Assembly (NCBI GenBank): GCA_017380475.1
Contig: JAFODX010000122.1
Location: 1-13,844 of the forward strand
DNA length: 13,844 nt
Source: Clostridia bacterium
GTDB taxonomy: Bacteria; Bacillota; Clostridia; UBA1381
Reading direction: 5' to 3'
Shown in pieces: positions 2,591 through 13,774 of this stretch (position 1 is its first letter; each line of letters begins with the position of its first letter). The notes under the pieces are model-generated. The model had not been told where the DNA came from. It did not search any database and was given only the letters and a program-made list of their open reading frames with translations. The position numbers were made by a program, and so were the translations under genes.

Positions 2591-3481
2591 TTACTCGCTT
2601 CCTTTAACAGTGACCTTTTTACCGTAGCAGTATGCAATTATTGTTCCGGGTCCTACACAAGAACCAACGATAGGTCCGATATTATTCATCATAACGTTTT
2701 TAAACGGTACAAGTTCAAGAATTTTATCACGAAGGGCTTCAGCGTCCTCCACGCAGTCTGCGTGTGTTATGTAAAGGCAGTCCATACCGTCTTCTTCAAC
2801 AACCTCGGCAACACGCTGTGCAATTTTTGCTTTTGCATTACCTGCACCCTTTACCTTTTCAACGGCATAGTTCTGACCTATAATATCTGAAATAATAATA
2901 GGCTTGATTCCGAACATATTACCGAAGAATGCACTTGATGCCTTAACTCTGCCCGCACGGCGCAGATAATCAAGATTATCAACCGTACCGAACTGGTTAA
3001 CTTTAAGTCTATTATCTTCAATATACTGAGCAGTTTCGTCTATGCTTTTGCCCTCTTTGCGAAGCTCTGATGCACGGATTACCATAAATCCCTGACCGAG
3101 AGAACTGCAGAGTGAGTCAACACATACAACCTTGTTATCCTTGTATTCTTCAGCAAGTTCGGCAGCAATAACCTTTGCAAGATTAACCGAGCCTGAAAGT
3201 GCTGATGAACATGATATGTAAAGAACATCCTTACCCTCTTTGAGATAATGGGTAAACTTGCTGATGAATGCTTCACGGGGTACTTGTGTGGTTGTAGCTC
3301 TCTTTCCGTTACGCATAAAGTCATAGAATTCTTTTGCGGAGTGGGTTTCCCAGTCAAGGGAAGCAACATACTCTGTTCCGTCAATAACATAGTTCATTGC
3401 GACATAATCAACGTCGTATTTTTCTCTTACGTCTTTTGTCAAATCTGAGGTAGAGTCTGCAATAATAACAAATTCGCTCAT
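2591..3481 (-). CDS. fakB: DegV-family fatty-acid-binding protein FakB (paralogue 1)
   Basis: FakB proteins bind a fatty acid and present it to FakA for phosphorylation. This copy has 296 residues, the usual DegV length. It opens with FVIIADSTSDLT (4-15). It has TTTQVP (63-68), the ISCSSALSG ligand loop (89-97), LDYLRRAGR (170-178) and the C-terminal GPG turn (277-279). The family normally has a His two residues before the GPG stretch (G-x-H-x-GPG). Here that residue is Cys275 (GSCVGPG). An AGGAGA ribosome binding site sits 9 nt before the ATG. It lies 15 nt downstream of the second fakB and 5 nt upstream of fakA. The paired paralogues suggest that each prefers a different fatty acid, as described in other Firmicutes. 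The chain preference cannot be read from the sequence. Confidence 0.9.
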   Translation of the reverse strand: MSEFVIIADSTSDLTKDVREKYDVDYVAMNYVIDGTEYVASLDWETHSAKEFYDFMRNGKRATTTQVPREAFISKFTHYLKEGKDVLYISCSSALSGSVNLAKVIAAELAEEYKDNKVVCVDSLCSSLGQGFMVIRASELRKEGKSIDETAQYIEDNRLKVNQFGTVDNLDYLRRAGRVKASSAFFGNMFGIKPIIISDIIGQNYAVEKVKGAGNAKAKIAQRVAEVVEEDGMDCLYITHADCVEDAEALRDKILELVPFKNVMMNNIGPIVGSCVGPGTIIAYCYGKKVTVKGSE

Positions 3482-3496
3482 TTTTTTATGTCTCCT

Positions 3497-4444
3497 TTAT
3501 CTGGTATTTTTAAGCTCCTTCAGTGCTTCTGAAAGTGCATTTTGTTCTATGCTGTGGTCATCTGAAACCGGATTTCCTATGAAGTATACTGCACATAATC
3601 CCGGTCCTGTTGATGCACCGCATGACATACTGATGTGATTTATAATAATATCTTTCGGCTTGATTTCTTCCCGCAGTCTTTCTGCAAGCAGTTCTGCATT
3701 TTTTTCACGGTTTGAGTGTGAAACGAACAGAATCTGTTCTTCGGGATTTACTATAAGCCGTTTAACATAACCGACAGTCGCCTCGATAGCCGATTTTGTA
3801 CCTTTTGCTTTGCCCACAACAGCGGGCAATCCCCCGGCACTGAAATCGCCAAGAGAATTAACGCCGACAAGTGTTCCGAAAAGTGCTTTCAGGTTTGAAA
3901 TGCGTCCTGTTTTAACACAGAAGAACAAATCATCAAGAGGTCCCATCTGGTGGATGCAATGCTTAATAGTATCAAGATATTCAGCGGTTTCTTCTATTGA
4001 TGCACCTTTGCTTTGCATCTCATAACCTTTGGAAATAAGCAGAGTTTCTGCTGAAGCATATCGCAACGAGTCGATACAGATAATCTTACGTTCAGGATAC
4101 TTCTTCAAAAGGTCTTTCGCTACTGTTTTACAGCATTGAACTGTTCCCGAAAGAGCAGATGAGAGCGAGATGCTCAGTATATCAATCCCTTCCTTTAAGA
4201 ACGGTTCATAAACCTCCATAATTTCCCCAACCGGAGGTGTTGCCGTTTTATACAGTATATTTCGTCCTTTCATTGAGAGGTAGTAATCCTCAGGTGTTAT
4301 ACAATCCCAATCCACATCTGCAAGCATCTGTTCGCCGTCCGGTCTGTAAACAGTTCCTCTGACAACCGCAGGAATACCAAAGCGTTCACGTATAGCCAGA
4401 GGCACATCTGCTGAGGAATCGGGGATAATAACAAATTTTCCCAT
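3497..4444 (-). CDS. DegV-family fatty-acid-binding protein FakB (paralogue 2)
   Basis: This is a second FakB-like protein of 315 residues and the first gene of the fak operon. It opens with KFVIIPDSSADVP (3-15) and has SISLSSALSGT (91-101) for the ligand carboxylate, a CVKTGRIS segment (176-183), and GASTGPG (276-282) where most DegV proteins have G-x-H-x-GPG. The Pro-containing GIKPI segment of paralogue 1 is replaced by GVNSL, and a Gly-rich stretch (FSAGGLP) follows, so its pocket has probably diverged. I chose ATG 4444, preceded by AGGATGG. A longer frame opening with TTG at 4504 would start on the -35 box of the promoter and code through the -10 box, so it cannot be the translation start. 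The fatty acid it binds is unknown. Confidence 0.88.
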   Translation of the reverse strand: MGKFVIIPDSSADVPLAIRERFGIPAVVRGTVYRPDGEQMLADVDWDCITPEDYYLSMKGRNILYKTATPPVGEIMEVYEPFLKEGIDILSISLSSALSGTVQCCKTVAKDLLKKYPERKIICIDSLRYASAETLLISKGYEMQSKGASIEETAEYLDTIKHCIHQMGPLDDLFFCVKTGRISNLKALFGTLVGVNSLGDFSAGGLPAVVGKAKGTKSAIEATVGYVKRLIVNPEEQILFVSHSNREKNAELLAERLREEIKPKDIIINHISMSCGASTGPGLCAVYFIGNPVSDDHSIEQNALSEALKELKNTR

Positions 4445-4475
4445 ATATGTCACCATCCTATCATCATATACTGAA

Positions 4476-4504
4476 ATTATAACATACCGGGTAATTATTT
4501 TCAA
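4476..4504 (-). promoter_or_regulatory. Sigma-A promoter of the fak-plsX operon
   Basis: On the minus strand, TTGAAA (4504-4499), a 17-nt spacer and TATAAT (4481-4476) form a near-consensus promoter. TG one base before the -10 box makes it an extended -10. Transcription should start about 30 nt before ATG 4444. I saw no FapR-like or FabT-like operator nearby. Confidence 0.8.
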
Positions 4505-4585: not shown

Positions 4586-5548
4586 ATGCCGTGGTGGCTA
4601 TACATATTATTGGGGATTATCATACTTGCCGTTCTGGGCGGTCTGGGCGCAATGCTTTATATTACAATACCGATTGCCAGACGTGTGTATTTTGAGCAGT
4701 TGGTAAAGACTTCGGAAGAAAAATGGGGACGTGTATGTTCAGCCCCTGACAACGAAGAACAGCTTGCGATGTGGAATGCAGGCATAGAATGGGCAGAGCC
4801 GCATAAAGCTGTTATGAAAGAGGTTGAAATCGAAAATGACGGACTTAAGCTTTACGGCGAGTACTATGATTTCGGCAGTGATAAATGTGCAATCATTCTG
4901 CCGGGCAGATGCGAATGTCTTATATATTCATATTACTTTGCAGAGCCGTACCGGAGAGCAGGAATGAATGTGCTTGTTATCGACTCACGCTGTCACGGAA
5001 AGAGTGACGGAAAATATTCAACAATCGGTCTCGGAGAATCGGAAGACATAAAAGCATGGATACGCTATATGGAAGGTGAGTTTGGTATCAGGTCGTTCTG
5101 GCTCCACGGAATATGCATAGGAAGCGGAGGAGCGTTGCTTGCGGCAAAATCAGAAGACATCGCAGAGAAAATAGGCGGAATTGTGCTTGAGGGTTGTTTT
5201 GTTGATTTCCGTGAATCGTTTAAACAGCATATGATAACCGACAAGCGTCCGGTTTTCCCTGTACTTGACCTGGTTATGCATAATATAAGGCGTTATGCCG
5301 GTGTTGATGTAATGAAGATAGCACCGATAAAACTGGTTAAACATATTCATTGTCCGATTTTGTTTTTGTTTGGCAGACAGGACAAGTTTTCAATCCCTCC
5401 CAAGAGCGTAAAGCTTTTCGGTGCGTGTGCATCGGTACATAAAAAGCTTGTATGGTTTGACAAGGGGTGTCATTCACATCTGAGAATCAACAATACCGAA
5501 CAATATGATAATTCAATAGTAGAGTTTGTGAAAGAGTATGAAGAATAA
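4586..5548 (+). CDS. Membrane-anchored alpha/beta hydrolase with a Cys at the nucleophile position
   Basis: This 320-residue protein begins with one hydrophobic segment (about 4-30) followed by Arg-Arg, probably an anchor that leaves the catalytic domain in the cytoplasm. An alpha/beta-hydrolase domain follows. It has the strand and oxyanion region IILPGRCE (103-110), VIDSRCHGKSDG (131-142), the nucleophile elbow LHGICIGSGG (173-182), the acid-residue strand LFGRQDKF (261-268, D266) and the C-terminal His (KGCHSH, H296 or H298). Related hydrolases have G-x-S-x-G at the elbow; here it is G-I-C-I-G, so Cys177 replaces Ser. Dienelactone hydrolase uses such a Cys-Asp-His triad, so activity is possible. 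The substrate is unknown. A strong ribosome binding site (AGGGGGG) lies 7 nt before the ATG. The stop overlaps the next start by 11 nt, indicating translational coupling to the deacetylase. Confidence 0.85.
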   Translation: MPWWLYILLGIIILAVLGGLGAMLYITIPIARRVYFEQLVKTSEEKWGRVCSAPDNEEQLAMWNAGIEWAEPHKAVMKEVEIENDGLKLYGEYYDFGSDKCAIILPGRCECLIYSYYFAEPYRRAGMNVLVIDSRCHGKSDGKYSTIGLGESEDIKAWIRYMEGEFGIRSFWLHGICIGSGGALLAAKSEDIAEKIGGIVLEGCFVDFRESFKQHMITDKRPVFPVLDLVMHNIRRYAGVDVMKIAPIKLVKHIHCPILFLFGRQDKFSIPPKSVKLFGACASVHKKLVWFDKGCHSHLRINNTEQYDNSIVEFVKEYEE

Positions 5549-6386
5549 AAAACAAAAATATGCGTGTTTTTCAATAGATGTTGAACGGTTTATCGACACG
5601 GAGTGTGTTCGTAACGCCAATCAGCCGATTGAGCAGACGATGCTTGACGGGCTTGACAGGTATATGGAAATACTGGACAGGCATAATATAAAAGCCACGA
5701 TGTTTGTGCTCAGCGATTTTGCTGAGGATATATATGAACAGTTAAAAAAGCATCTGGAAAACGGACATAAGCTTGCTCTCCACGGCAAAGAGCATATAGC
5801 ACCAAGAAAACATTCAAACGAGAAGTTCAGAGCACAGATTATAAGTGCAAAGACCAAGCTTGAAAAAATGTTTGACACGGAAATCACGGGTTACCGTGCA
5901 CCGCATTTCAGTATCGACCGTGACAAGCTCGGAATCCTGAACGAGCTGGGCTTCAGATATGATTCGAGTCGTATGGATTTTCCTACAGCAAGATATACAA
6001 CATACGTGGATATGGACGGTTTCGAGAACCCGACAGGTGAAATATACAAAAAAGAAGAATTTTATGAGTTTGGTGTTCCGACGCAGAATGTTTTCGGTAA
6101 GAAGTACCCCATTTCAGGCGGCGGATATGTGCGTATGTCAAACTGGTTTTTCATAAACGCACTTATTAAGCGGTATGCGAAGAAGAATGATTATTATATG
6201 TTTTATCTGCATCCGTTTGAGCTGTCAAAAGAAAAACTGCCAAAGCTCGGAAAGTTAAAGTTTTACGATAAAATGTACCTGAAAAAAGGTAATCTTCTGT
6301 ACAGATACAAGATAGAAAACATTATAAAAATACTAAAAAAAACAGGGTATAAATTTACTACATTTGAAAAGCTTGTAAATGAATAA
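5538..6386 (+). CDS. Polysaccharide deacetylase family protein (NodB homology domain)
   Basis: This is a 282-residue metal-dependent carbohydrate deacetylase, expected to remove N- or O-acetyl groups from a glycan or glycan precursor. Motifs in order are FSIDVE (11-16, Asp14), LHGKEH (81-86, the H-x-x-x-H metal ligands His82 and His86), GYRAPHFSID (118-127) and YLHPFE (223-228, His225). The D-V-E form of the first motif, instead of D-D-G, resembles the deacetylases linked to exopolysaccharide clusters rather than secreted chitin deacetylases. No signal peptide or membrane segment is visible, so it probably acts in the cytoplasm or as part of a complex. The start lies inside the end of the hydrolase gene with only a weak GAAAGAG upstream, so translation probably depends on coupling. 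No glycosyltransferases lie nearby, so the glycan is unknown. Confidence 0.88.
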   Translation: MKNKKQKYACFSIDVERFIDTECVRNANQPIEQTMLDGLDRYMEILDRHNIKATMFVLSDFAEDIYEQLKKHLENGHKLALHGKEHIAPRKHSNEKFRAQIISAKTKLEKMFDTEITGYRAPHFSIDRDKLGILNELGFRYDSSRMDFPTARYTTYVDMDGFENPTGEIYKKEEFYEFGVPTQNVFGKKYPISGGGYVRMSNWFFINALIKRYAKKNDYYMFYLHPFELSKEKLPKLGKLKFYDKMYLKKGNLLYRYKIENIIKILKKTGYKFTTFEKLVNE

Positions 6387-6420
6387 AACGGATACACCGA
6401 TTATAGATGTATCCGTTTTA
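6384..6420. terminator. Bidirectional intrinsic terminator between converging operons
   Basis: A perfect 13-bp inverted repeat (arms 6384-6396 and 6408-6420) encloses an 11-nt loop and is A/T-rich at both outer ends. TTTTA follows on the plus side and TTTTATTC on the minus side, so it can act both ways. The outermost triplet of each arm is the TAA stop of the gene arriving from that side: 6384-6386 for the deacetylase and 6418-6420 for the LRAT-like gene. Confidence 0.85.
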
Positions 6421-6822
6421 TTTTAAGTTAAGTTTTTTTCGTATATCTGACCTGACATCGTCAAGAAACGACCGTTTCTCGCCGAACATACAGTCATACG
6501 CAAAATGCTCGCAGTTGTTGTTAAGGATATTATATCCTTTCTCGCCTACACGTGAAAGTGCAAGCTCAACAGTTTTCTCAGGCGAACGGCGTTTACGTTT
6601 TTCGGAAAAATCGAGCTTTGATGTTTCTACAAACTCGCACTCTGAAAATTCGTCTATACCTGTTATAAGCACTGCAATCTCGTCAGGTGGTGTATTGCCG
6701 TTATTGCGTCTTCCGAACTGAATAACCGTTTCAGGGTCTTTATAAATCCCGTAATGGTAATAAAAACTCATTTTTACCCGAACCATATCGCCGAATTCGG
6801 GAGTATTCTGTGTCCATTGCAT
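6418..6822 (-). CDS. LRAT/NlpC-P60-type thiol acyltransferase-like protein
   Basis: This 134-residue protein matches the lecithin-retinol acyltransferase (LRAT) fold. GDMVRVK (11-17) leads into the H-box YHYGIYKD (22-29, His23). Near the C-terminus lies the signature NNNCEHFAYDCMFG (101-114) with Cys104, followed by KRSFLDDVR, close to the R/K-S segment after the Cys in animal LRAT/PLAAT proteins. These enzymes form an acyl-Cys intermediate and move acyl groups between lipids or to amines; some bacterial members may be hydrolases. The third catalytic residue, usually His twelve residues after the first (VIH), is Gln35 here (VIQF). There is no membrane segment, unlike vertebrate LRAT. It is the last gene of the acyl operon, starting 3 nt after the ACP stop, with its ribosome binding site (CAGGGA) inside the ACP gene. 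An acyl-transfer or acyl-thioester hydrolysis role is inferred. Confidence 0.85.
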   Translation of the reverse strand: MQWTQNTPEFGDMVRVKMSFYYHYGIYKDPETVIQFGRRNNGNTPPDEIAVLITGIDEFSECEFVETSKLDFSEKRKRRSPEKTVELALSRVGEKGYNILNNNCEHFAYDCMFGEKRSFLDDVRSDIRKKLNLK

Positions 6823-6825
6823 AGT

Positions 6826-7062
6826 TTATCCCTGCTCTTGTATCTTTCTTATTACATCAGCTACCGTATTCATATTTTCAAAATCTGAATTGGTGAACTT
6901 CACTCCGTATTTTTCTTCAAGCACCATTGCCATATATAGAAGAGAAATAGAGTTCATACCCACATCCTTACGTAAATCTGAATTTTCATTAAAAGCGGAT
7001 AAATCCATATCGCTTCCGAAAACTGTGTGGAATATTTCCTTTAATTCTTCGACTGTTACCAT
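6826..7062 (-). CDS. Free-standing acyl carrier protein
   Basis: This is a 78-residue acidic protein with the acyl-carrier fold. LKEIFHTVFG forms helix I. A linker leads to DVGMNSISLLYMAMVLEEKYG (33-53), with the phosphopantetheine-accepting Ser38 at the start of helix II. FENMNTVADVIRKIQEQ forms the C-terminal helix. The usual DSL around the serine is N-S-I here (G-M-N-S-I). With the genes around it, this points to a dedicated carrier rather than the housekeeping fatty-acid-synthase ACP. Its start overlaps the stop of the upstream acyltransferase gene by 7 nt (ATGGTAA), with GGAGG 8 nt before the ATG. It presumably receives or delivers the acyl group used by its operon partners. No phosphopantetheinyl transferase is encoded in the window. 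Confidence 0.92.
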   Translation of the reverse strand: MVTVEELKEIFHTVFGSDMDLSAFNENSDLRKDVGMNSISLLYMAMVLEEKYGVKFTNSDFENMNTVADVIRKIQEQG

Positions 7063-7712
7063 TTTTCATTCCTCCGTATTTCTTCAAATAGTGTCTGACA
7101 TTCGCCCATTTTTTCCAGAACGAGCTCTGTGTATGAACCGATGTCTGCCATATTCGACATCATTCCGCCCTTAAGCGGTGCAATCGGTTCTCCGATAACT
7201 ATGCAGTTTCGTTCTTTCCGCTTTGTTTTTCTGTAGATATATACAGGAACAATCGGCACATTCGCCTGCATAGCCATAAGAACGATTCCCGACTTTATTG
7301 CAGAGACGTTCTCTTCGCGGTCTATTCCGCCCTGCGGAAAAACCGAAAGCATATGCCCCTCTTTAAGAACGGACACTGCCTTTCTTATAGCGTCCATATC
7401 GCATATACTGCGGTCGATTTCGATACAGCCCATACCCTTGAGAAGTCCGCTTACGGACTTTTTCTGCATAACAACCTCTGCCGTAAGAAAGAACATCCGC
7501 CGATACCAGAAGCAACAGCCAAGCATAAGCGGGTCGTAAAAATTCGTATGATTTGCGGCTATAAGTGCACCGTTACGGATTTTTTCCTTCGCCTTATCGG
7601 AAACATATATTTTCCGCAATCTGAACCATAACGGCATACTGCTGCATACAATTCTGCCCATATCCATAGGGAAGTGCCGTATATCAAACAATTTTGCTTT
7701 ATTTTTCTCCAT
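7056..7712 (-). CDS. PlsC-family lysophospholipid acyltransferase-like protein (second of pair)
   Basis: This 218-residue member of the LPLAT/PlsC superfamily transfers acyl groups from acyl-ACP or acyl-CoA to a hydroxyl of a lipid acceptor at the membrane. The catalytic H-x4-D is NHTNFYD (54-60, His55 and Asp60). The acceptor-binding motif, FPEG in most members, is FPQGGID (125-131). The VPIVPVYIY segment (152-160) matches the last conserved block. It is slightly shorter than typical PlsC (about 240). A Met/Phe-rich stretch (about 62-82) may sit in the membrane surface. Its ATG lies 14 nt inside the end of the preceding acyltransferase gene, and its own stop overlaps the ACP start, so the three genes are translationally coupled. 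The acceptor is unknown and may not be lysophosphatidate. Confidence 0.88.
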   Translation of the reverse strand: MEKNKAKLFDIRHFPMDMGRIVCSSMPLWFRLRKIYVSDKAKEKIRNGALIAANHTNFYDPLMLGCCFWYRRMFFLTAEVVMQKKSVSGLLKGMGCIEIDRSICDMDAIRKAVSVLKEGHMLSVFPQGGIDREENVSAIKSGIVLMAMQANVPIVPVYIYRKTKRKERNCIVIGEPIAPLKGGMMSNMADIGSYTELVLEKMGECQTLFEEIRRNEKW

Positions 7713-8358
7713 TCGCTTTGTTCATCCTTTTTTCAAGTTCCGCTTTAAGCTCATAGTTTTTATCTTCGAGCATTTTTGTGAGCCTTTTAATCTCATCGTC
7801 GGAAACATTTTCCGAAGAAACAAAATCACGAAGATGAATTTTTTCGCCAATCATAATATGAGTCCGTTTAAAAATCCCGTAATTACCGTCGGTGTAAACA
7901 GGGACAATGGGTGCATCGGTACGCAGTGCAACAAGCACGATTCCGGGTTTATACGGGAACGGTTTACCGTCAACGGGCAGACGTCCCTGCGGAAAAATCC
8001 CGACAATACCGTTTTTGTCAAGCACTTCAAGACTGTCTTCTATAAACGAAAAATTACAGACATCCCTGTCAACGAAAATACCGCCGAGCTTATACAAAAA
8101 CCATGAAAAAATCTTTGTTTTGCTAAACAGTACCTCTGACATAAGGAAGCGGATTGTGCGGAACGGGAAAGTGACAAGATACAGCACAAAATCCAACAGC
8201 GAGAGATGGTTTGACATAAGAATAGCACTTTTGGGCAGACGGCGTTTACAGTTTTCGTTCAAACAATAAACTTTCGGCTTGAAAAGGAGAAGTGCAGGAA
8301 GAATTCCCGTAACCTTAACGAATCCGAGAAAAAACCGGCTTAATTTTTGTTTCTTCAT
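7699..8358 (-). CDS. PlsC-family lysophospholipid acyltransferase-like protein (first of pair)
   Basis: This 219-residue paralogue of the downstream acyltransferase belongs to the same LPLAT/PlsC superfamily. An N-terminal hydrophobic helix (about 9-27) is followed by SNHLSLLDF (49-57; H-x4-D with His51 and Asp56), FVDRD (95-99), IFPQGRLPVDG (121-131) and KPGIVLVALRTDAPIVPVY (137-155). As in its neighbour, FPEG is replaced by FPQG. The C-terminus is charged and probably helical (DDEIKRLTKMLEDKN). It starts 3 nt after the ligase stop. Two acyltransferases of this type side by side suggest two successive acylations of one acceptor, or acylation of two acceptors. This is inferred from gene arrangement only. 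Confidence 0.88.
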   Translation of the reverse strand: MKKQKLSRFFLGFVKVTGILPALLLFKPKVYCLNENCKRRLPKSAILMSNHLSLLDFVLYLVTFPFRTIRFLMSEVLFSKTKIFSWFLYKLGGIFVDRDVCNFSFIEDSLEVLDKNGIVGIFPQGRLPVDGKPFPYKPGIVLVALRTDAPIVPVYTDGNYGIFKRTHIMIGEKIHLRDFVSSENVSDDEIKRLTKMLEDKNYELKAELEKRMNKANGEK

Positions 8359-8361
8359 AAA

Positions 8362-10269
8362 TTACAGATGCCTTTCTATATATTCACACATTTCACGGAC
8401 AGTATAGCGCAGATTTTCTTTCTCCGTTGCCTGCAGAGAAAACTCATCGGCAAGTGCTGATAATATTGAAAAATACTGCAAACTGTCAGCCTCCATATCC
8501 AGCATAATATGTGCATCAGGATTAATCTTGTCAGCCGTTACATCAAGTGTTTTTGCCACAATTTCAGTAACTGCGGCAAGGATTTCTTCATTAAGTGCAG
8601 TATGCGAAATTTCACTGACGTCTGTTTTTACAAAATCAGAAAGAGTTACATTGCCGTTCTCTATTTCACGCAACAGATACTTTCTGCTCACCTTCACTGC
8701 CGATTCTGACTTAATCGGGTCTTTGGTAAAGTAGAAATTTTGCACACGTGATGTTGTGGGCAGGCTGTCATTTATTTTATATACACGGTCTATGAGTGCA
8801 TTCCGCTTTGACGCAGAGAAATATTTTCCCGTCTCAACAACCATAGAAACTGTCTTTTTGCCATCACGTTCAAGTCCCAGCACGCAGAAATTCTCTGCTT
8901 CGGGTATGGTGAATGACTGCTCGATTATGTCGGGATTGATATTTTCACCGCTTTCGCCGATAATCATATCGCCTGCACGGCCGTTTATATAATAGCAGTT
9001 ATTTCTGAACACGGCATTATCATCGGTGGAGAACCAGTCACCCATCTCAATCGGCTCACCGTCAATCCATACACTGTTACATATTGAATTGCCTCTGACA
9101 TAAAGTATTCCGTCTTCGATTTTATATTCTACAGAAGAGAACGGAAGACCGACAGAATTAAGATTCTTATGTCTGGGACGAGGACGCAGTTCAACGGACG
9201 TAATTCCTATCTCGCTCATACCGTAGCCGTTATGGAGATTGTATCCTATTCCGTTAAGCATTTCGAGTGCGGACTGTCTTATGTAGCTTCCGCCGTTAAT
9301 GCAAAAACGTATGCTCTGACCGAACAGCTCATCTGTAACCTCGTGCATAATTTTCTGTGAGAGTGTCATTCCGAGATGTGGCATAAGATTCTGCAGACCT
9401 GTACAGAGTTTAAGTCCCGTATTGAACTTTCCGGCTTTCTTTTCGCCCTTTTCATTCACCTTTTTAAGTACTGCTTTTTCGATTGTGTGCCAGAGCATCG
9501 GCACTGCAAAAACGTGAGTAACATTGTGCTTTTTACAGGTCTTAAGGATAGTGTCTGCCGAATAATTTTTCAAAAATACAACAGTCTGTCCGAAGAAAGT
9601 GAACCAGAAATATACGGCTATTAACCCGAACACGTGATAAAACGGCAGAAACGCAAGGTTTTTTATTCTGCCCTTGTACTGATTTGCGATTTCGGGGTAT
9701 TTGCCGATAAAGGTTTTAACATTAAGAATCTGTGCACACAGTTCTTTTCCTGTGTAGAAACAGATAACCTCCTTTAAGGATGTTGCGGAAGTAGAAAGTG
9801 CAAGCTCATTTTCGAACTCGCCGTCGAAACGGTTTGATGTCTTGAGAGAAGCAATATCAATATATTCTGCATCAAGTCTGCCTGCAACATAGCCTATTGC
9901 ATATTTTATATCAAGGCGTTTGAGTGCTGAATCAGCCAGACTCTTCGGGTGTCTGCAGTTAACAAGGTACGGCTTGTTACCACTCCTTAAAATTGCCCAG
10001 AATGCAACAATCCAGTCAACGGAGTTTTCCATATCAAGAGCAACAAAACCGTGTGTCGCACCGATTTTTTCATACAACGCACACGATGCCTCTTCTATAC
10101 GCTCACGTGTCTGTGCATAACTGTAGGTACGGATTCTGAACCCGTCGTTATCCTCTGCAAGAATTGCATCCTGATTAAACATAATCGAATACAGTGCACA
10201 AAAATCCCGTGCAGAGTTTTCAAGTGCCGTACTGTTTTTATTTAATATCTTTTTCAATTCCTTATTCAT
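8362..10269 (-). CDS. AMP-dependent ligase-like protein fused to an acyl-carrier domain
   Basis: This 635-residue protein has an ANL (acyl-CoA synthetase/adenylation) fold with a C-terminal carrier domain (about 557-635). Recognisable motifs are LPFYHVFG (208-215), NGYGMSE (347-353; family N-x-Y-G-x-T-E), GDWFSTDD (410-417), GRAGDMI (430-436) and Lys526 in AVKVSRK, at the place of the catalytic lysine. The carrier motif is EADSLQ, with Ser596 as the phosphopantetheine site. The ATP-phosphate loop, normally YTSGTTGxPKG, is not conserved: residues 171-181 read FYTGKELCAQI. ATP use is therefore uncertain. If active, it would load a fatty acid onto its own or the free ACP. I chose ATG 10269: GGCGGT precedes it by 6 nt, and the upstream in-frame ATG at 10299 would sit almost on the transcription start. 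It is the first gene of the operon. Confidence 0.85.
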   Translation of the reverse strand: MNKELKKILNKNSTALENSARDFCALYSIMFNQDAILAEDNDGFRIRTYSYAQTRERIEEASCALYEKIGATHGFVALDMENSVDWIVAFWAILRSGNKPYLVNCRHPKSLADSALKRLDIKYAIGYVAGRLDAEYIDIASLKTSNRFDGEFENELALSTSATSLKEVICFYTGKELCAQILNVKTFIGKYPEIANQYKGRIKNLAFLPFYHVFGLIAVYFWFTFFGQTVVFLKNYSADTILKTCKKHNVTHVFAVPMLWHTIEKAVLKKVNEKGEKKAGKFNTGLKLCTGLQNLMPHLGMTLSQKIMHEVTDELFGQSIRFCINGGSYIRQSALEMLNGIGYNLHNGYGMSEIGITSVELRPRPRHKNLNSVGLPFSSVEYKIEDGILYVRGNSICNSVWIDGEPIEMGDWFSTDDNAVFRNNCYYINGRAGDMIIGESGENINPDIIEQSFTIPEAENFCVLGLERDGKKTVSMVVETGKYFSASKRNALIDRVYKINDSLPTTSRVQNFYFTKDPIKSESAVKVSRKYLLREIENGNVTLSDFVKTDVSEISHTALNEEILAAVTEIVAKTLDVTADKINPDAHIMLDMEADSLQYFSILSALADEFSLQATEKENLRYTVREMCEYIERHL

Positions 10270-10309
10270 ATCAATACCGCCGTAAAATTTTATCAACATA
10301 AATCGACTT

Positions 10310-10338
10310 ATTATACCATATATTTACCGAAAAATCAA
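10310..10338 (-). promoter_or_regulatory. Sigma-A promoter of the five-gene acyl operon
   Basis: On the minus strand, TTGATT (10338-10333), a 17-nt spacer and TATAAT (10315-10310) with an extended -10 TG give a strong promoter. Transcription should begin around 10303, about 35 nt before ATG 10269. It lies directly downstream of the zinc-ribbon terminator, so the acyl operon is expressed as its own unit. Confidence 0.78.
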
Positions 10339-10390: not shown

Positions 10391-10897
10391 TTACGCATAG
10401 AGTCCTGCTGCCATTAACGCTATGAAAAACGAAACAACAGAAAGAATTATCGTAACAATTCCCAATGCCTTGCCTGCGCCTGCCATACCGGATTTTGAAC
10501 CTCGGTTTCTTGCCGCACTGCTTAATGCGACTGCTACAATTCCTATAATCAGTTCAATTATGGCTAAAACTATCGTAAAGCCTAAAAAGAAACCAAACCC
10601 ATATGTATATTCATATGAATAATAATCATATGAGAAATGTTCATAAAAAGTTGCACCCACGCCCATTGTAATAAAAGCGTAAATCAATGCAACAATAGCT
10701 CCGCATATACCTTCTATGCCCATTATCATACTTACTATAGCCTGACCGAGTCCGGCTTTTGAAGAAGTCGGAGCGGGACTGTAGTATGAATATGACGGCG
10801 TCGGAGCATTCTCAGGCTCTACCGCAGAGCTTCCGCAGGTATTGCAAAAATTAGTATGCTGGGCAAATCTCTGTCCGCAGTTTCTGCATATGTACAT
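10391..10897 (-). CDS. Zinc-ribbon membrane protein (paralogue 2 of a tandem pair)
   Basis: This 168-residue protein of unknown function has an N-terminal four-cysteine zinc ribbon (CRNCG at 4-8 and CNTCG at 18-22; Cys4, 7, 18, 21). A Pro/Ser/Tyr-rich linker (about 28-46) leads into a membrane domain with hydrophobic stretches near 52-82, 103-127 and 144-166. A Tyr-rich loop (about 84-101) sits between the first two stretches. The ribbon and the following GSSAVEPEN are nearly the same as in the upstream neighbour, so the pair arose by duplication. AGGAG lies 8 nt before the ATG and the gap from the first gene is 24 nt. Such proteins are common in Clostridia as small membrane proteins with a cytoplasmic ribbon. 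I cannot assign a function. Confidence 0.85.
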   Translation of the reverse strand: MYICRNCGQRFAQHTNFCNTCGSSAVEPENAPTPSYSYYSPAPTSSKAGLGQAIVSMIMGIEGICGAIVALIYAFITMGVGATFYEHFSYDYYSYEYTYGFGFFLGFTIVLAIIELIIGIVAVALSSAARNRGSKSGMAGAGKALGIVTIILSVVSFFIALMAAGLYA

Positions 10898-10921
10898 ATC
10901 GAATTCTCCTGTCTGAAAGAT

Positions 10922-11383
10922 TTATGCGTTTATGCAAAGACCGATGAATGAGAAGAAGAACGCAACACCGGCAACAATGATAGAAACCATACCCAAAGTC
11001 TTGCCTACCGTTGCCATACTTCCCATGAATCCTTTATTCTTTGACATTGAACCGAGAATCATTCCTGCAATACCGAATGCAACAAAGAAGAGTGCGTAGA
11101 ACATAGCCATACTTGCAATGTCATCATCGGTGAATCCGCCAAATGACATAAAGAATGAAATACCCGTGAAAAAGATACCCACGATACCGCAAACCATACT
11201 GATAATACCCAGAATCTTACCTGCCGGTGAAGATGATGCAGGAGCTACGGGTGCACTGTATGTGTATACCGGCTCTGCTGTATATACCGGAATTTCTTCA
11301 GGCTCTATTGCAGAACTTCCGCACTGGTTACAGAAATTAACCTGTGTATCAAATTTTTCCCCACAATTTTTACAAACAAACAT
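10922..11383 (-). CDS. Zinc-ribbon membrane protein (paralogue 1 of a tandem pair)
   Basis: This 153-residue protein has the same architecture as its downstream paralogue. The zinc ribbon is CKNCG (4-8) and CNQCG (18-22), followed by GSSAIEPEE and a Pro/Ala/Ser/Tyr-rich linker (about 32-53). Three hydrophobic segments lie near 56-80, 92-112 and 128-150. The first two are separated by an acidic TDDD loop, and the second and third by a basic, glycine-rich loop (SKNKGFMGS). I chose ATG 11383 because GGAGG lies exactly 8 nt upstream; a start at 11410 in the same frame has no ribosome binding site. It is the first gene of a two-gene transcript. No function is recognised; a sensory or membrane-homeostasis role would be a guess. 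Confidence 0.85.
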   Translation of the reverse strand: MFVCKNCGEKFDTQVNFCNQCGSSAIEPEEIPVYTAEPVYTYSAPVAPASSSPAGKILGIISMVCGIVGIFFTGISFFMSFGGFTDDDIASMAMFYALFFVAFGIAGMILGSMSKNKGFMGSMATVGKTLGMVSIIVAGVAFFFSFIGLCINA

Positions 11384-11404
11384 TTTAAATACCTCCATAT
11401 TTTT

Positions 11405-11425
11405 TGTCATAATATGACATATTAT
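11405..11425. promoter_or_regulatory. Overlapping palindromes, possible operator
   Basis: Two perfect palindromes overlap: TGTCATAATATGACA (11405-11419, 7-bp arms) and ATAATATGACATATTAT (11409-11425, 8-bp arms), each around one central base. They lie between the predicted -10 box of the zinc-ribbon promoter and its ribosome binding site, where a repressor would block transcription. The regulator is unknown. The A/T richness means chance symmetry cannot be fully excluded. Confidence 0.45.
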
Positions 11426-11460: not shown

Positions 11461-11540
11461 TAGATTTGTTAAAAAAAGAAAAGCAATAAGCAAAAATGTG
11501 TGTATTTTCAGCAAAAAAGTGATGAATTACATAAAAACTC

Positions 11541-11568
11541 TTTACTATGACGAAAAAAATGGTAAGAT
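11541..11568 (+). promoter_or_regulatory. Possible promoter of the alpha-galactosidase gene
   Basis: TTTACT (11541-11546), a 16-nt spacer and TAAGAT (11563-11568) preceded by TG and one base give a moderate extended -10 promoter. The ribosome binding site GCGGAGG follows at 11580-11586. I found no catabolite-repression (cre) site. Confidence 0.4.
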
Positions 11569-11593
11569 AAAAGAAAAAAGCGGAGGTTTCCAA

Positions 11594-13774
11594 ATGAAAT
11601 ACGAAGTAATCAACACACCATTAAACAAAGTAAGGTATACAAACTATGAGGACTATACCGTTCTTGTTAATACGGAAGACTATACCTTTGAATGTTACTA
11701 CAAAAAGGAAAAGTTTGCTGAGTGTAAGCTGGAGGGCTTTTACAGAAACGGCGAAAAGGAAACTGATTTTTCAGAGTTCCCGTTCTGTTTTGTAAGACAG
11801 GGCTACAAAAAAACAAACAACTCACAGATGTCGCTTGCATTTTTCGATAAAGAACCCGGCAGTATAAGTATGTGGTATGAGACGGACATTGAACCGATAC
11901 ATACAGTACTTATAAAGCCGTCAAACAACGGTGTAGCTGTAGAGTTAATCAACTCAGACGGTCTTGAAGTGAAGGTATCGGGTGTTATATGCCACTCACC
12001 TGAGGACAAGGACGATGTTTTTGCAGTATCGGTTACTCGTGATGCGTTTGATGTACGTTCAGGTATCGGCCCTGCAATCTCTACTATAGATAATGCTATT
12101 TACAACAGAAAGCTTGATAAGGCAGTTGTAGCAGGCAAGAGCAAAAAGACAAAGCTCAGCTATGACAAGGCAACAGACGAATACCGCTTTACCGGCTGGG
12201 CAACATCGGAAGAACAGTATGAGATTGGTGTTAAGGAGAATATCATTGCAACACAGTATCATATCAAGTTCAACCCCGTAAACAAAAATGCGACATTTTC
12301 AACACCGCCTGTCGGCTGGATGACCTGGTATGCAGTTAAGTTTGATGCAAGCGAGGAAACAGTGCTTGAAAATGCAAGATTCCAGTCAGAGCATCTTAAG
12401 GATTTCGGTGCAAACACAATCTGGGTTGACTGGGAATGGTATCATGACGCGATTCCTTCAGACCGTACGGACGGCGTAAATTCACTTATGCCTGACCCGA
12501 AAAAGTACCCCAACGGTATGAAATATCTTGCAGATAAAATCCGTGAGCTTGGCTTTGCTCCGTCAATATGGATAGGCTACACTCACGAGCCGGGCCCGAA
12601 CAAGTACACAGAGAAGTATCCGGAAATGGTTCTTGCAGAGTATCATACATGGTGCGGATACTACTTCTATGACTATACAAACCCGCACTATCTGAACGAA
12701 TATTTACCCGAGGCACTTGGACAGGTACACGACTGGGGTTATGATGCTGTTAAGTTTGATGTATTGCCGAGCTCAATGGGCGTTAATGATATGTACCATG
12801 ACAGAATGTATGACCCGACACAGACAACTTATGAGGCATACCGCAATATGCTTAAAAAGACACGTGAGGTTCTTGGCAAGGATATGTATATGCTTTCATG
12901 CTCAGGTGCGACACAGCCGTCAGTATTGTGGGCATCAGACATATTCGATGCTGCAAGAATCGGTGACGATATATTCACATGGGAAGAGAATATCAAAAAC
13001 CTTGGCAGAATCCAGGAATTCTATCCGCTTCATAACATTCAGATGCACGTTGATGCAGATAACGTTGTTGTCCGTGAAGAATTCAATAACATTGAGCAGG
13101 CAAAGTCAAGAGTGGTATCAATATCACTTCTTGGTCTTCCGTTCACATTCGGAGACGATTTCAAGGTTCTTGACGAGGCAAGAGTTGATCTCTTAAAGCG
13201 TTCACTCCCGATAATTGATATGCACCCGATGGATCTTACACCTGCAAACTTCAACAAAGAGGATATGTTAATAAACCTCAACATCGTAAAGGATTACGAA
13301 GAATATCAGGTTTCAGGCGTATTCAATATGAAAGAAACAGCAGATAAGCGTGTTGTTAAGTTTGATGAGGATTTACACCTTGCAGACGGCAAGTATCTTG
13401 TTTATGATTACTTCCGTAACAAGTTCCTCGGCATATGTGAAAATGAAATCGAGCTTGACTTTGTACCGTATGAGGTTCGTGTTCTTGCACTTCGTCCGTT
13501 TAAGGGTGTACCGCAGGTTGTTTCAACATCAAGACACATCACTCAGGGTGCAGCAGAAATCAAGGATATGACATTTGACGGCCACACAATCAAAATCACA
13601 TCAGACCTTGTTGCAAATGATGAATACACTGTAAGCGTATATATTCCCGACGGCTACAGCGTTGCAGACCAGACAGGCTTTACAAATGTAACAAAGGACG
13701 GTAACATTGCACGTTTCACTTTTGTTCCGTCAGAAACAAAGGAATACAGCTTTGATATAAGCTTCGAAAAGTAA
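11594..13774 (+). CDS. Alpha-galactosidase-like glycoside hydrolase (GH36 / clan GH-D)
   Basis: This 726-residue enzyme is predicted to release terminal alpha-linked galactose (or a related sugar) from oligosaccharides. An N-terminal beta-sandwich region (about 1-230) precedes a TIM barrel. The barrel begins with PPVGWMTWYAV (238-248), the counterpart of GWNSW in clan GH-D, followed by IWVDWEWY (276-283). The nucleophile is Asp389 in DAVKFDVLPSS. Acid/base Asp459 lies in AARIGDD, which fits the family R-x-x-x-D. A C-terminal beta domain follows from about 560. No signal peptide is present, so it should act on imported sugars in the cytoplasm. ATG 11594 is chosen because GCGGAGG lies 7 nt upstream; the frame extends 32 codons further but without ribosome binding support and across the likely promoter. 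No transporter or regulator lies next to it in the window. Exact linkage specificity is not certain. Confidence 0.85.
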   Translation: MKYEVINTPLNKVRYTNYEDYTVLVNTEDYTFECYYKKEKFAECKLEGFYRNGEKETDFSEFPFCFVRQGYKKTNNSQMSLAFFDKEPGSISMWYETDIEPIHTVLIKPSNNGVAVELINSDGLEVKVSGVICHSPEDKDDVFAVSVTRDAFDVRSGIGPAISTIDNAIYNRKLDKAVVAGKSKKTKLSYDKATDEYRFTGWATSEEQYEIGVKENIIATQYHIKFNPVNKNATFSTPPVGWMTWYAVKFDASEETVLENARFQSEHLKDFGANTIWVDWEWYHDAIPSDRTDGVNSLMPDPKKYPNGMKYLADKIRELGFAPSIWIGYTHEPGPNKYTEKYPEMVLAEYHTWCGYYFYDYTNPHYLNEYLPEALGQVHDWGYDAVKFDVLPSSMGVNDMYHDRMYDPTQTTYEAYRNMLKKTREVLGKDMYMLSCSGATQPSVLWASDIFDAARIGDDIFTWEENIKNLGRIQEFYPLHNIQMHVDADNVVVREEFNNIEQAKSRVVSISLLGLPFTFGDDFKVLDEARVDLLKRSLPIIDMHPMDLTPANFNKEDMLINLNIVKDYEEYQVSGVFNMKETADKRVVKFDEDLHLADGKYLVYDYFRNKFLGICENEIELDFVPYEVRVLALRPFKGVPQVVSTSRHITQGAAEIKDMTFDGHTIKITSDLVANDEYTVSVYIPDGYSVADQTGFTNVTKDGNIARFTFVPSETKEYSFDISFEK

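Follow-up and report, generated by a model that had tools for sequence, protein, structure and literature searches.

What use would a Clostridia bacterium have for a ligase fused to a carrier domain, two PlsC-type acyltransferases, a free acyl carrier protein (ACP) and a protein of the LRAT fold, all encoded in one tight operon? We addressed this question in a single whole contig of 13,844 bases (JAFODX010000122.1, hereafter the window), which belongs to a 1.25 Mb assembly (GCA_017380475.1) that is 70% complete. The answer that we favour, and hold to be moderately probable, is that the operon serves a dedicated, carrier-protein-dependent lipid acylation system fed by exogenous fatty acids; the individual reactions, the use of acyl-ACP by the LRAT-like protein and the acceptors are parts of this answer that we infer. 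A literature search by title and the start of the abstract returned nothing on this gene combination, which, given its partial coverage, is weak evidence of novelty.

The operon lies on the minus strand and begins with LigACP (10299-8362), an ANL ligase of 645 amino acids with a fused C-terminal acyl carrier domain. It continues with PlsC1 (8358-7699; 219 amino acids; motifs NHLSLLD and FPQGR), PlsC2 (7712-7056; 218 amino acids; motifs NHTNFYD and FPQGG), the free ACP (7062-6826; 78 amino acids; attachment site Ser38) and the LRAT-like protein (6822-6418; 134 amino acids), which has H23, Q35 at the place of a second His, and C104 within NCEHF. Open reading frame positions agree with the preliminary description of five minus-strand genes separated by gaps of +3, -14, -7 and +3. 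Its family assignments likewise hold, all over Pfam cut-offs: PF00501 (E 2.2e-33) and PF00550 (E 7.3e-6) in LigACP, PF01553 in PlsC1 (E 1.4e-16) and PlsC2 (E 2.8e-22), PF00550 in the free ACP (E 4.7e-10) and PF04970 in the LRAT-like protein (60.7 bits, cut-off 24.3). The same description spoke of one strong promoter and one terminator, and here the terminator fared better. A hairpin of 15 pairs between convergent genes (6378-6420, minus strand; -19.4 kcal/mol, z -8.48, equalled by 0 of 200 shuffles) is a probable terminator; a terminator scan of the region did not list it. A promoter-like site, TTGATT-17-TATAAT with a TG (10338-10310, minus strand; 10/12 match), also exists, but the scanned region has no excess of sites of this kind over shuffles (23 versus 20.3, standard deviation 4.4). 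Because its -10 box ends at 10310, the ATG at 10299 leaves almost no leader, and LigACP more likely starts at 10269 (MNKELKK...).

We surveyed the distribution of the operon at increasing breadth. Among 94 other genomes of the order, no ligase ortholog was found at E 1e-28. A class sample of 391 genomes, searched at E 1e-35, contained 13 carriers including the window's own, and the best others reached 65 and 63% identity. One region was mapped in each of the 12 other class carriers, and three of them (L047, L048 and L050) have all five genes, making the full set rare in this even sample; L049 is without the LRAT gene, the other carriers hold shorter, fused or truncated sets, and L058, at a contig end, has the ligase only. 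Scanning named contigs gave 324 stretches encoding some ligase relative (E 1e-3), the best 80 of which, with the window, form a set of 81 loci; counts over this set are lower bounds, as many contigs end early. By their titles, all 80 records are metagenome-assembled genomes or uncultured organisms. Ruminant, rumen or horse is given as the host in 45/80 and no host in the others, and the taxa include Oscillospiraceae, Lachnospiraceae, other Clostridia, Bacilli, Acholeplasmatales/Anaeroplasma and a few others. L059, L111, L060 and the window form one group on the ligase tree (SH-aLRT 100).

The order LigACP-PlsC1-PlsC2-ACP-LRAT appears in 23 of the 81 loci, and in 7 more with PlsC1 and PlsC2 fused, at intergenic distances mostly between -40 and +20 (starts were assigned mechanically). 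Because gene order recurs in these 30 loci, the operon is more than a chance arrangement. Co-occurrence of the five families in order, which the preliminary description offered as a check, is thus supported among ligase-ACP loci but not by the order sample, where the ligase is absent, nor by most of the class carriers; the cluster is rare, but it is not a local oddity.

Treating the five genes as the whole unit proved too narrow. They also travel with genes for FakA-like and FakB-like proteins, PlsX, an alpha/beta-hydrolase-fold (ABH) protein of the Cys type and, in 24/81 loci, a phosphopantetheinyl transferase; because they do, the neighbourhood suggests that the acyl chains come from exogenous fatty acids. 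In the window, these neighbours are a PlsX paralog truncated at the contig end (2-934; PF02504, E 2.0e-67), a FakA-like fatty acid kinase subunit (948-2585; PF13684, PF02734 and PF21645) and two FakB-like (DegV) proteins, a (2591-3481; PF02645, E 9.4e-62) and b (3497-4504; PF02645, E 1.3e-47), all on the minus strand, followed on the plus strand by ABH1 (4586-5548; PF12146). The window thus pairs FakA-like domains with two DegV proteins, and the setting of the operon is one of fatty acid activation. Profile searches across the 81 loci found PlsC1 in 78, FakA in 66, ACP in 60, FakB_b in 56, PlsX in 51, PlsC2 in 45, FakB_a in 42 and LRAT in 39, together with ABH-type proteins (69, three kinds lumped), a family-2 glycosyltransferase (46) and an MFS_2 transporter (16). 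Among loci of 21 kb or longer (42), FakA is found in 37, ABH in 38, PlsX in 28, LRAT in 23 and the phosphopantetheinyl transferase in 12.

LigACP keeps most of the core ANL motifs. Invariant in an alignment of 12 sequences are the P-loop TS, the G and E of GYGMSE, D417, G430-R431..D434, GEN and the carrier Ser596; in 3/12 rows (L054-L056) no Lys aligns with that of KVSR. The NHx4D motif is present in 58/58 unfused PlsC1 relatives (window included), the motif H and D in 45/45 PlsC2 sequences and Ser38 of the free ACP in 60/60; PlsC1 and PlsC2 are fused in 20 relatives. In the third acyltransferase motif the window has FPQG instead of FPEGT, and relatives are mixed but often FPQG. Separately, a second ligase-type gene stands before ACP or ACP-LRAT in L104, L128, L136 and L138. 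An Ilyobacter polytropus plasmid (L194, 6452-11619) bears two adjacent genes annotated as AMP-binding proteins, each over 800 amino acids, and the first of them matches LigACP residues 205-631 at 26%.

The LRAT-like protein is the most distinctive member. H23 and the nucleophile C104 are present in 37/37 sequences, and the position equivalent to His35 of PLAAT3 holds Q in 32 and E in 5, so these proteins depart from a Cys-His-His triad. Fold and nucleophile are shared with PLAAT. The PLAAT family tolerates a polar residue at this triad position, because HRASLS1, itself a PLAAT, is described as having Asn there (PMC4624172). Among 15 strong LRAT matches in the 391 class genomes, the 7 located directly behind an ACP gene all have Q or E at the His35 place, and the other 8 have H. 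Two loci go further: here the ACP gene is immediately followed by a gene that joins an LRAT domain to a phosphopantetheinyl transferase domain (L191, 7838-8848, minus strand; L193, 6646-7641, plus strand). On a quick ligase tree of 79 rows, the patchy presence of LRAT requires 10 changes, and 0 of 500 shuffles came as low. From these sequence features we propose that the protein is a putative acyl-ACP-dependent LRAT-fold acyltransferase.

A second candidate acyl-handling enzyme is ABH1, which has an N-terminal helix, C177 at the nucleophile elbow, D266 and H296. Among 57 proteins scoring over 230 bits in the 81 loci, C177 is kept in 51, D266 in 56 and H296 in 56; the nucleophile is accordingly Cys (GxCxG) rather than the Ser of an esterase GxSxG. 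GxSxG is seen in the remaining 6, apparently the copies with the lowest scores. Its AlphaFold model (pLDDT 95.8) has as best Foldseek match an esterase of P. furiosus, and the predicted fold is that of esterases. Cys occupies the nucleophile elbow of polyhydroxyalkanoate synthases and dienelactone hydrolase, and because of this precedent ABH1 may possibly catalyse transfer rather than hydrolysis. Two more alpha/beta hydrolase kinds and the family-2 glycosyltransferase adjoin PlsX in many relatives (for example, L071 15844-16806, L087 10917-12026 and L048 14877-15911); a glycolipid product is conceivable.

In the system that we envisage, FakB-like and FakA-like proteins would make acyl phosphate from fatty acid, and the cluster PlsX would move it to the dedicated carriers, both fused and free. 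LigACP would provide a second entry by adenylating fatty acid and loading the carrier domains, which in some relatives would be primed by the in-cluster phosphopantetheinyl transferase. PlsC1 and PlsC2 would then use acyl-ACP to esterify a backbone, either glycerol-phosphate or lysolipid. The LRAT-like protein would take an acyl chain from acyl-ACP as acyl-Cys104 and hand it on to another acceptor or to water, acyl-ACP thereby serving as donor where human LRAT and PLAAT enzymes take the chain from phospholipid. ABH1, with its Cys nucleophile, would be a second acyl-handling enzyme.

Could the operon simply make phosphatidate from scavenged fatty acids, with no new product and with the LRAT-like protein as a housekeeping thioesterase or phospholipase? 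To weigh this reading we drew on a panel of 45 assemblies: the window's own and 44 carrier genomes out of the 80, chosen with a preference for longer loci. FabF is matched at E 1e-3 in 12/45 genomes, one at only 6.5e-4, and exceeds the family cut-off in 6/45; in five genomes the matching frame is about 795 amino acids long. FabD is matched in 12/45, one partially and 11 over the cut-off. Substantial matches to both coincide in the same 11 of 44 carriers, and neither has one in the other 33, in assemblies that are incomplete; such genomes would have to import acyl chains, which fits this reading and the exogenously fed system that we favour alike. In the class sample, by comparison, FabF is found in 283/391 genomes at E 1e-60 (276 over the cut-off), and the difference between 11/44 carriers and 277/378 is marked (Fisher p 5e-10, relatedness ignored). 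Most examined carriers therefore look dependent on outside fatty acids, and the cluster is not restricted to them. FakAB-PlsX-PlsY-PlsC is moreover a known Gram-positive route, as outlined in PMC10146087. Yet the carriers seem already equipped for it: PlsY is present in 41/45 genomes and PlsX in 44/45, with at least two full-length copies in 30/45 (counted by hand), usually with one scoring high and the other lower, as the window's does. The window's assembly itself has a second PlsX elsewhere (PF02504, E 3.7e-100). In 19 of 20 of the 44 genomes, checked by hand, a PF01553 protein is encoded outside the cluster, the exception being L059, a 0.8 Mb assembly. Because PlsY, paired PlsX and PF01553 proteins outside the cluster are so frequent, ordinary phosphatidate synthesis probably needs no cluster, and the operon looks like an extra acyl route, in line with the preliminary description of a pathway separate from the main PlsX/PlsY/PlsC one. 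As a matter of general knowledge, the ordinary route also needs no dedicated carriers or phosphopantetheinyl transferases. We consider this reading the least likely of the alternatives.

A somewhat better, although still improbable, alternative is a repair or scavenging system like LplT-Aas, in which host or dietary lysolipids are imported and reacylated. LigACP and PlsC1 would then together amount to an Aas that is split in two and fused to an ACP, with the MFS_2 transporter standing in for LplT and the LRAT-like protein and ABH1 acting as the deacylating half of a Lands-type cycle. Short loci do hold FakB, FakA, an MFS_2 transporter (PF13347), LigACP, PlsC1 and ABH; the best NCBIfam match of PlsC1 is an acyl-[ACP]-phospholipid O-acyltransferase, and its FPQGR..V.G resembles FPEGRITTTG of Aas. 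In E. coli, LplT and Aas are reported to form one complex (PMC11416262). That best match is far under cut-off: PlsC1 scores 28.4 and 60.9 bits on the Aas equivalogs NF005959 and NF006386 against cut-offs of 886 and 1221, models that span the whole fusion and that short proteins cannot reach. The PlsC1 profile gives 48.5 bits each on the E. coli Aas domain and PlsC, the PlsC2 profile 48.7 bits on Aas and 43.7 on PlsC, and the LigACP profile is weak on the Aas ligase domain (14.6 bits). The MFS_2 transporter profile does not match LplT, and we rejected it as an LplT homologue. This reading also leaves the adjacency of LRAT and ACP, the phosphopantetheinyl transferase fusion and the Q/E substitution unexplained. 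With a similarly low probability, the LRAT-like protein could be an editing enzyme that hydrolyses wrong acyl chains off ACPs in the manner of a type II thioesterase rather than a transferase, a role compatible with the rest of the acylation system that we favour. Its linkage to ACP and phosphopantetheinyl transferase would fit, and the replacement of the second His by Q or E could shift the balance between transfer and hydrolysis. Against such editing, the solved structures nearest to this protein carry the names of phospholipases and acyltransferases (PMC4624172). In all structure comparisons here, absence of a family from the match lists does not exclude it.

Several observations weigh against the dedicated, exogenously fed acylation system. 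Equivalog cut-offs are missed by the presumed kinase components: the FakA-like protein is over the cut-off of TIGR03599 and scores 436 bits on the FakA equivalog NF038248 (cut-off 975), and the FakB-like proteins score 123.6 and 77.9 bits on the FakB1 equivalog (cut-off 350), models that may be narrow. The LRAT gene is in the ordered chain in 37/81 loci and not in the other 44, some of them truncated, which makes it an accessory, variable member of the cluster. A tie between LRAT and the loss of fatty acid synthesis was rejected: Fisher's test gave p 0.028, but there were only 4 independent pairs, and the independent-pairs test of LRAT presence versus FabF absence showed no signal. The 11 of 44 carriers that keep FabF and FabD count in the same direction. 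On the ligase tree FabF status can be explained by just 4 changes, so its statistic is not independent of kinship, and FabF is present in 6/12 of the other class-sample carriers (by hand; p 0.098). Finally, because PlsC1 and PlsC2 match Aas and PlsC equally or nearly so, the acceptor is not readable from sequence, which for PlsC1 does not separate lysophosphatidate from lysophospholipid.

Known systems place these features in context. As in the Gram-positive FakAB-PlsX incorporation pathway, where PlsX is described as converting acyl phosphate to acyl-ACP (PMC10146087), FakA-like, FakB-like and PlsX genes lie next to the operon, both in the window and across most of the 81 loci; unlike that pathway, the cluster adds ATP-dependent activation on a fused ACP, two PlsC proteins, a free ACP, LRAT, a Cys-type hydrolase-fold protein and often a second PlsX. 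E. coli LplT-Aas likewise combines a ligase with a PlsC-type acyltransferase (45.3 bits for the PlsC1 profile against the Aas acyltransferase domain), whereas the window has ligase and PlsC as separate genes, an ACP on the ligase and an added LRAT and free ACP, and the transporter of its relatives comes from another family. Compared with human PLAAT/LRAT enzymes (PLAAT3, HRASLS2), the cluster LRAT differs in having Gln or Glu for the second catalytic His in all 37 sequences and in adjoining an ACP gene; we know of no ACP gene partner for PLAAT. By analogy, the closest functional model for dedicated carriers is AasR-AcpR of Rhodobacteria, a specialised acyl-ACP synthetase and ACP reported to channel fatty acid to one lipid class, the sphingolipids (PMC9386255). 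Our operon differs in having PlsC and LRAT instead of serine palmitoyltransferase, and in an ACP that is also fused to the ligase.

The origin of the contig itself deserves care. Because the ligase is missing in the 94 other genomes of the order at E 1e-28 and FakA, at E 1e-30, in 15/15 same-genus genomes, a foreign contig is suggested. Tetranucleotide composition gives no sign of one (r 0.97 for the window against the pooled other contigs, whose own values are 0.85-0.97); because binning itself uses composition, this match is compatible with lateral transfer as well as with mis-binning. Phage or plasmid origin was rejected: LRAT found no match in phages, and among plasmid records none has a single region that matches 80% of the ligase. 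Elsewhere in the window, a polysaccharide-deacetylase-like gene (5538-6386, plus strand; PF01522) is optional, occurring in 14/81 loci. Upstream of the operon, 10391-11410 encodes two proteins with sub-threshold zinc-ribbon matches, and related ZnR2 genes are near the cluster in 26/81 loci. A 758-amino-acid protein (11498-13774) has sub-threshold similarity to melibiases and no NCBIfam match at E 0.01. Scans of the window with Rfam at gathering cut-offs and for tRNAs returned no match.

A bolder and more tentative possibility is that the LRAT-like proteins constitute a new LRAT-fold class, marked by a His-to-Gln/Glu change and using acyl-ACP rather than phospholipid as donor, within a carrier-dependent pathway through which gut bacteria that lack fatty acid synthesis could turn scavenged fatty acids into a lipid, possibly an N-acyl or extra-acylated one. 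If the proposed system is real, it would link an exogenous fatty acid kinase, a dedicated ACP system and the LRAT fold, which we did not find linked in the literature searched, and would supply an ACP-dependent counterpart to the human PLAAT enzymes. It would also offer a concrete, testable system for lipid making in uncultured gut bacteria that seemingly go without fatty acid synthesis.

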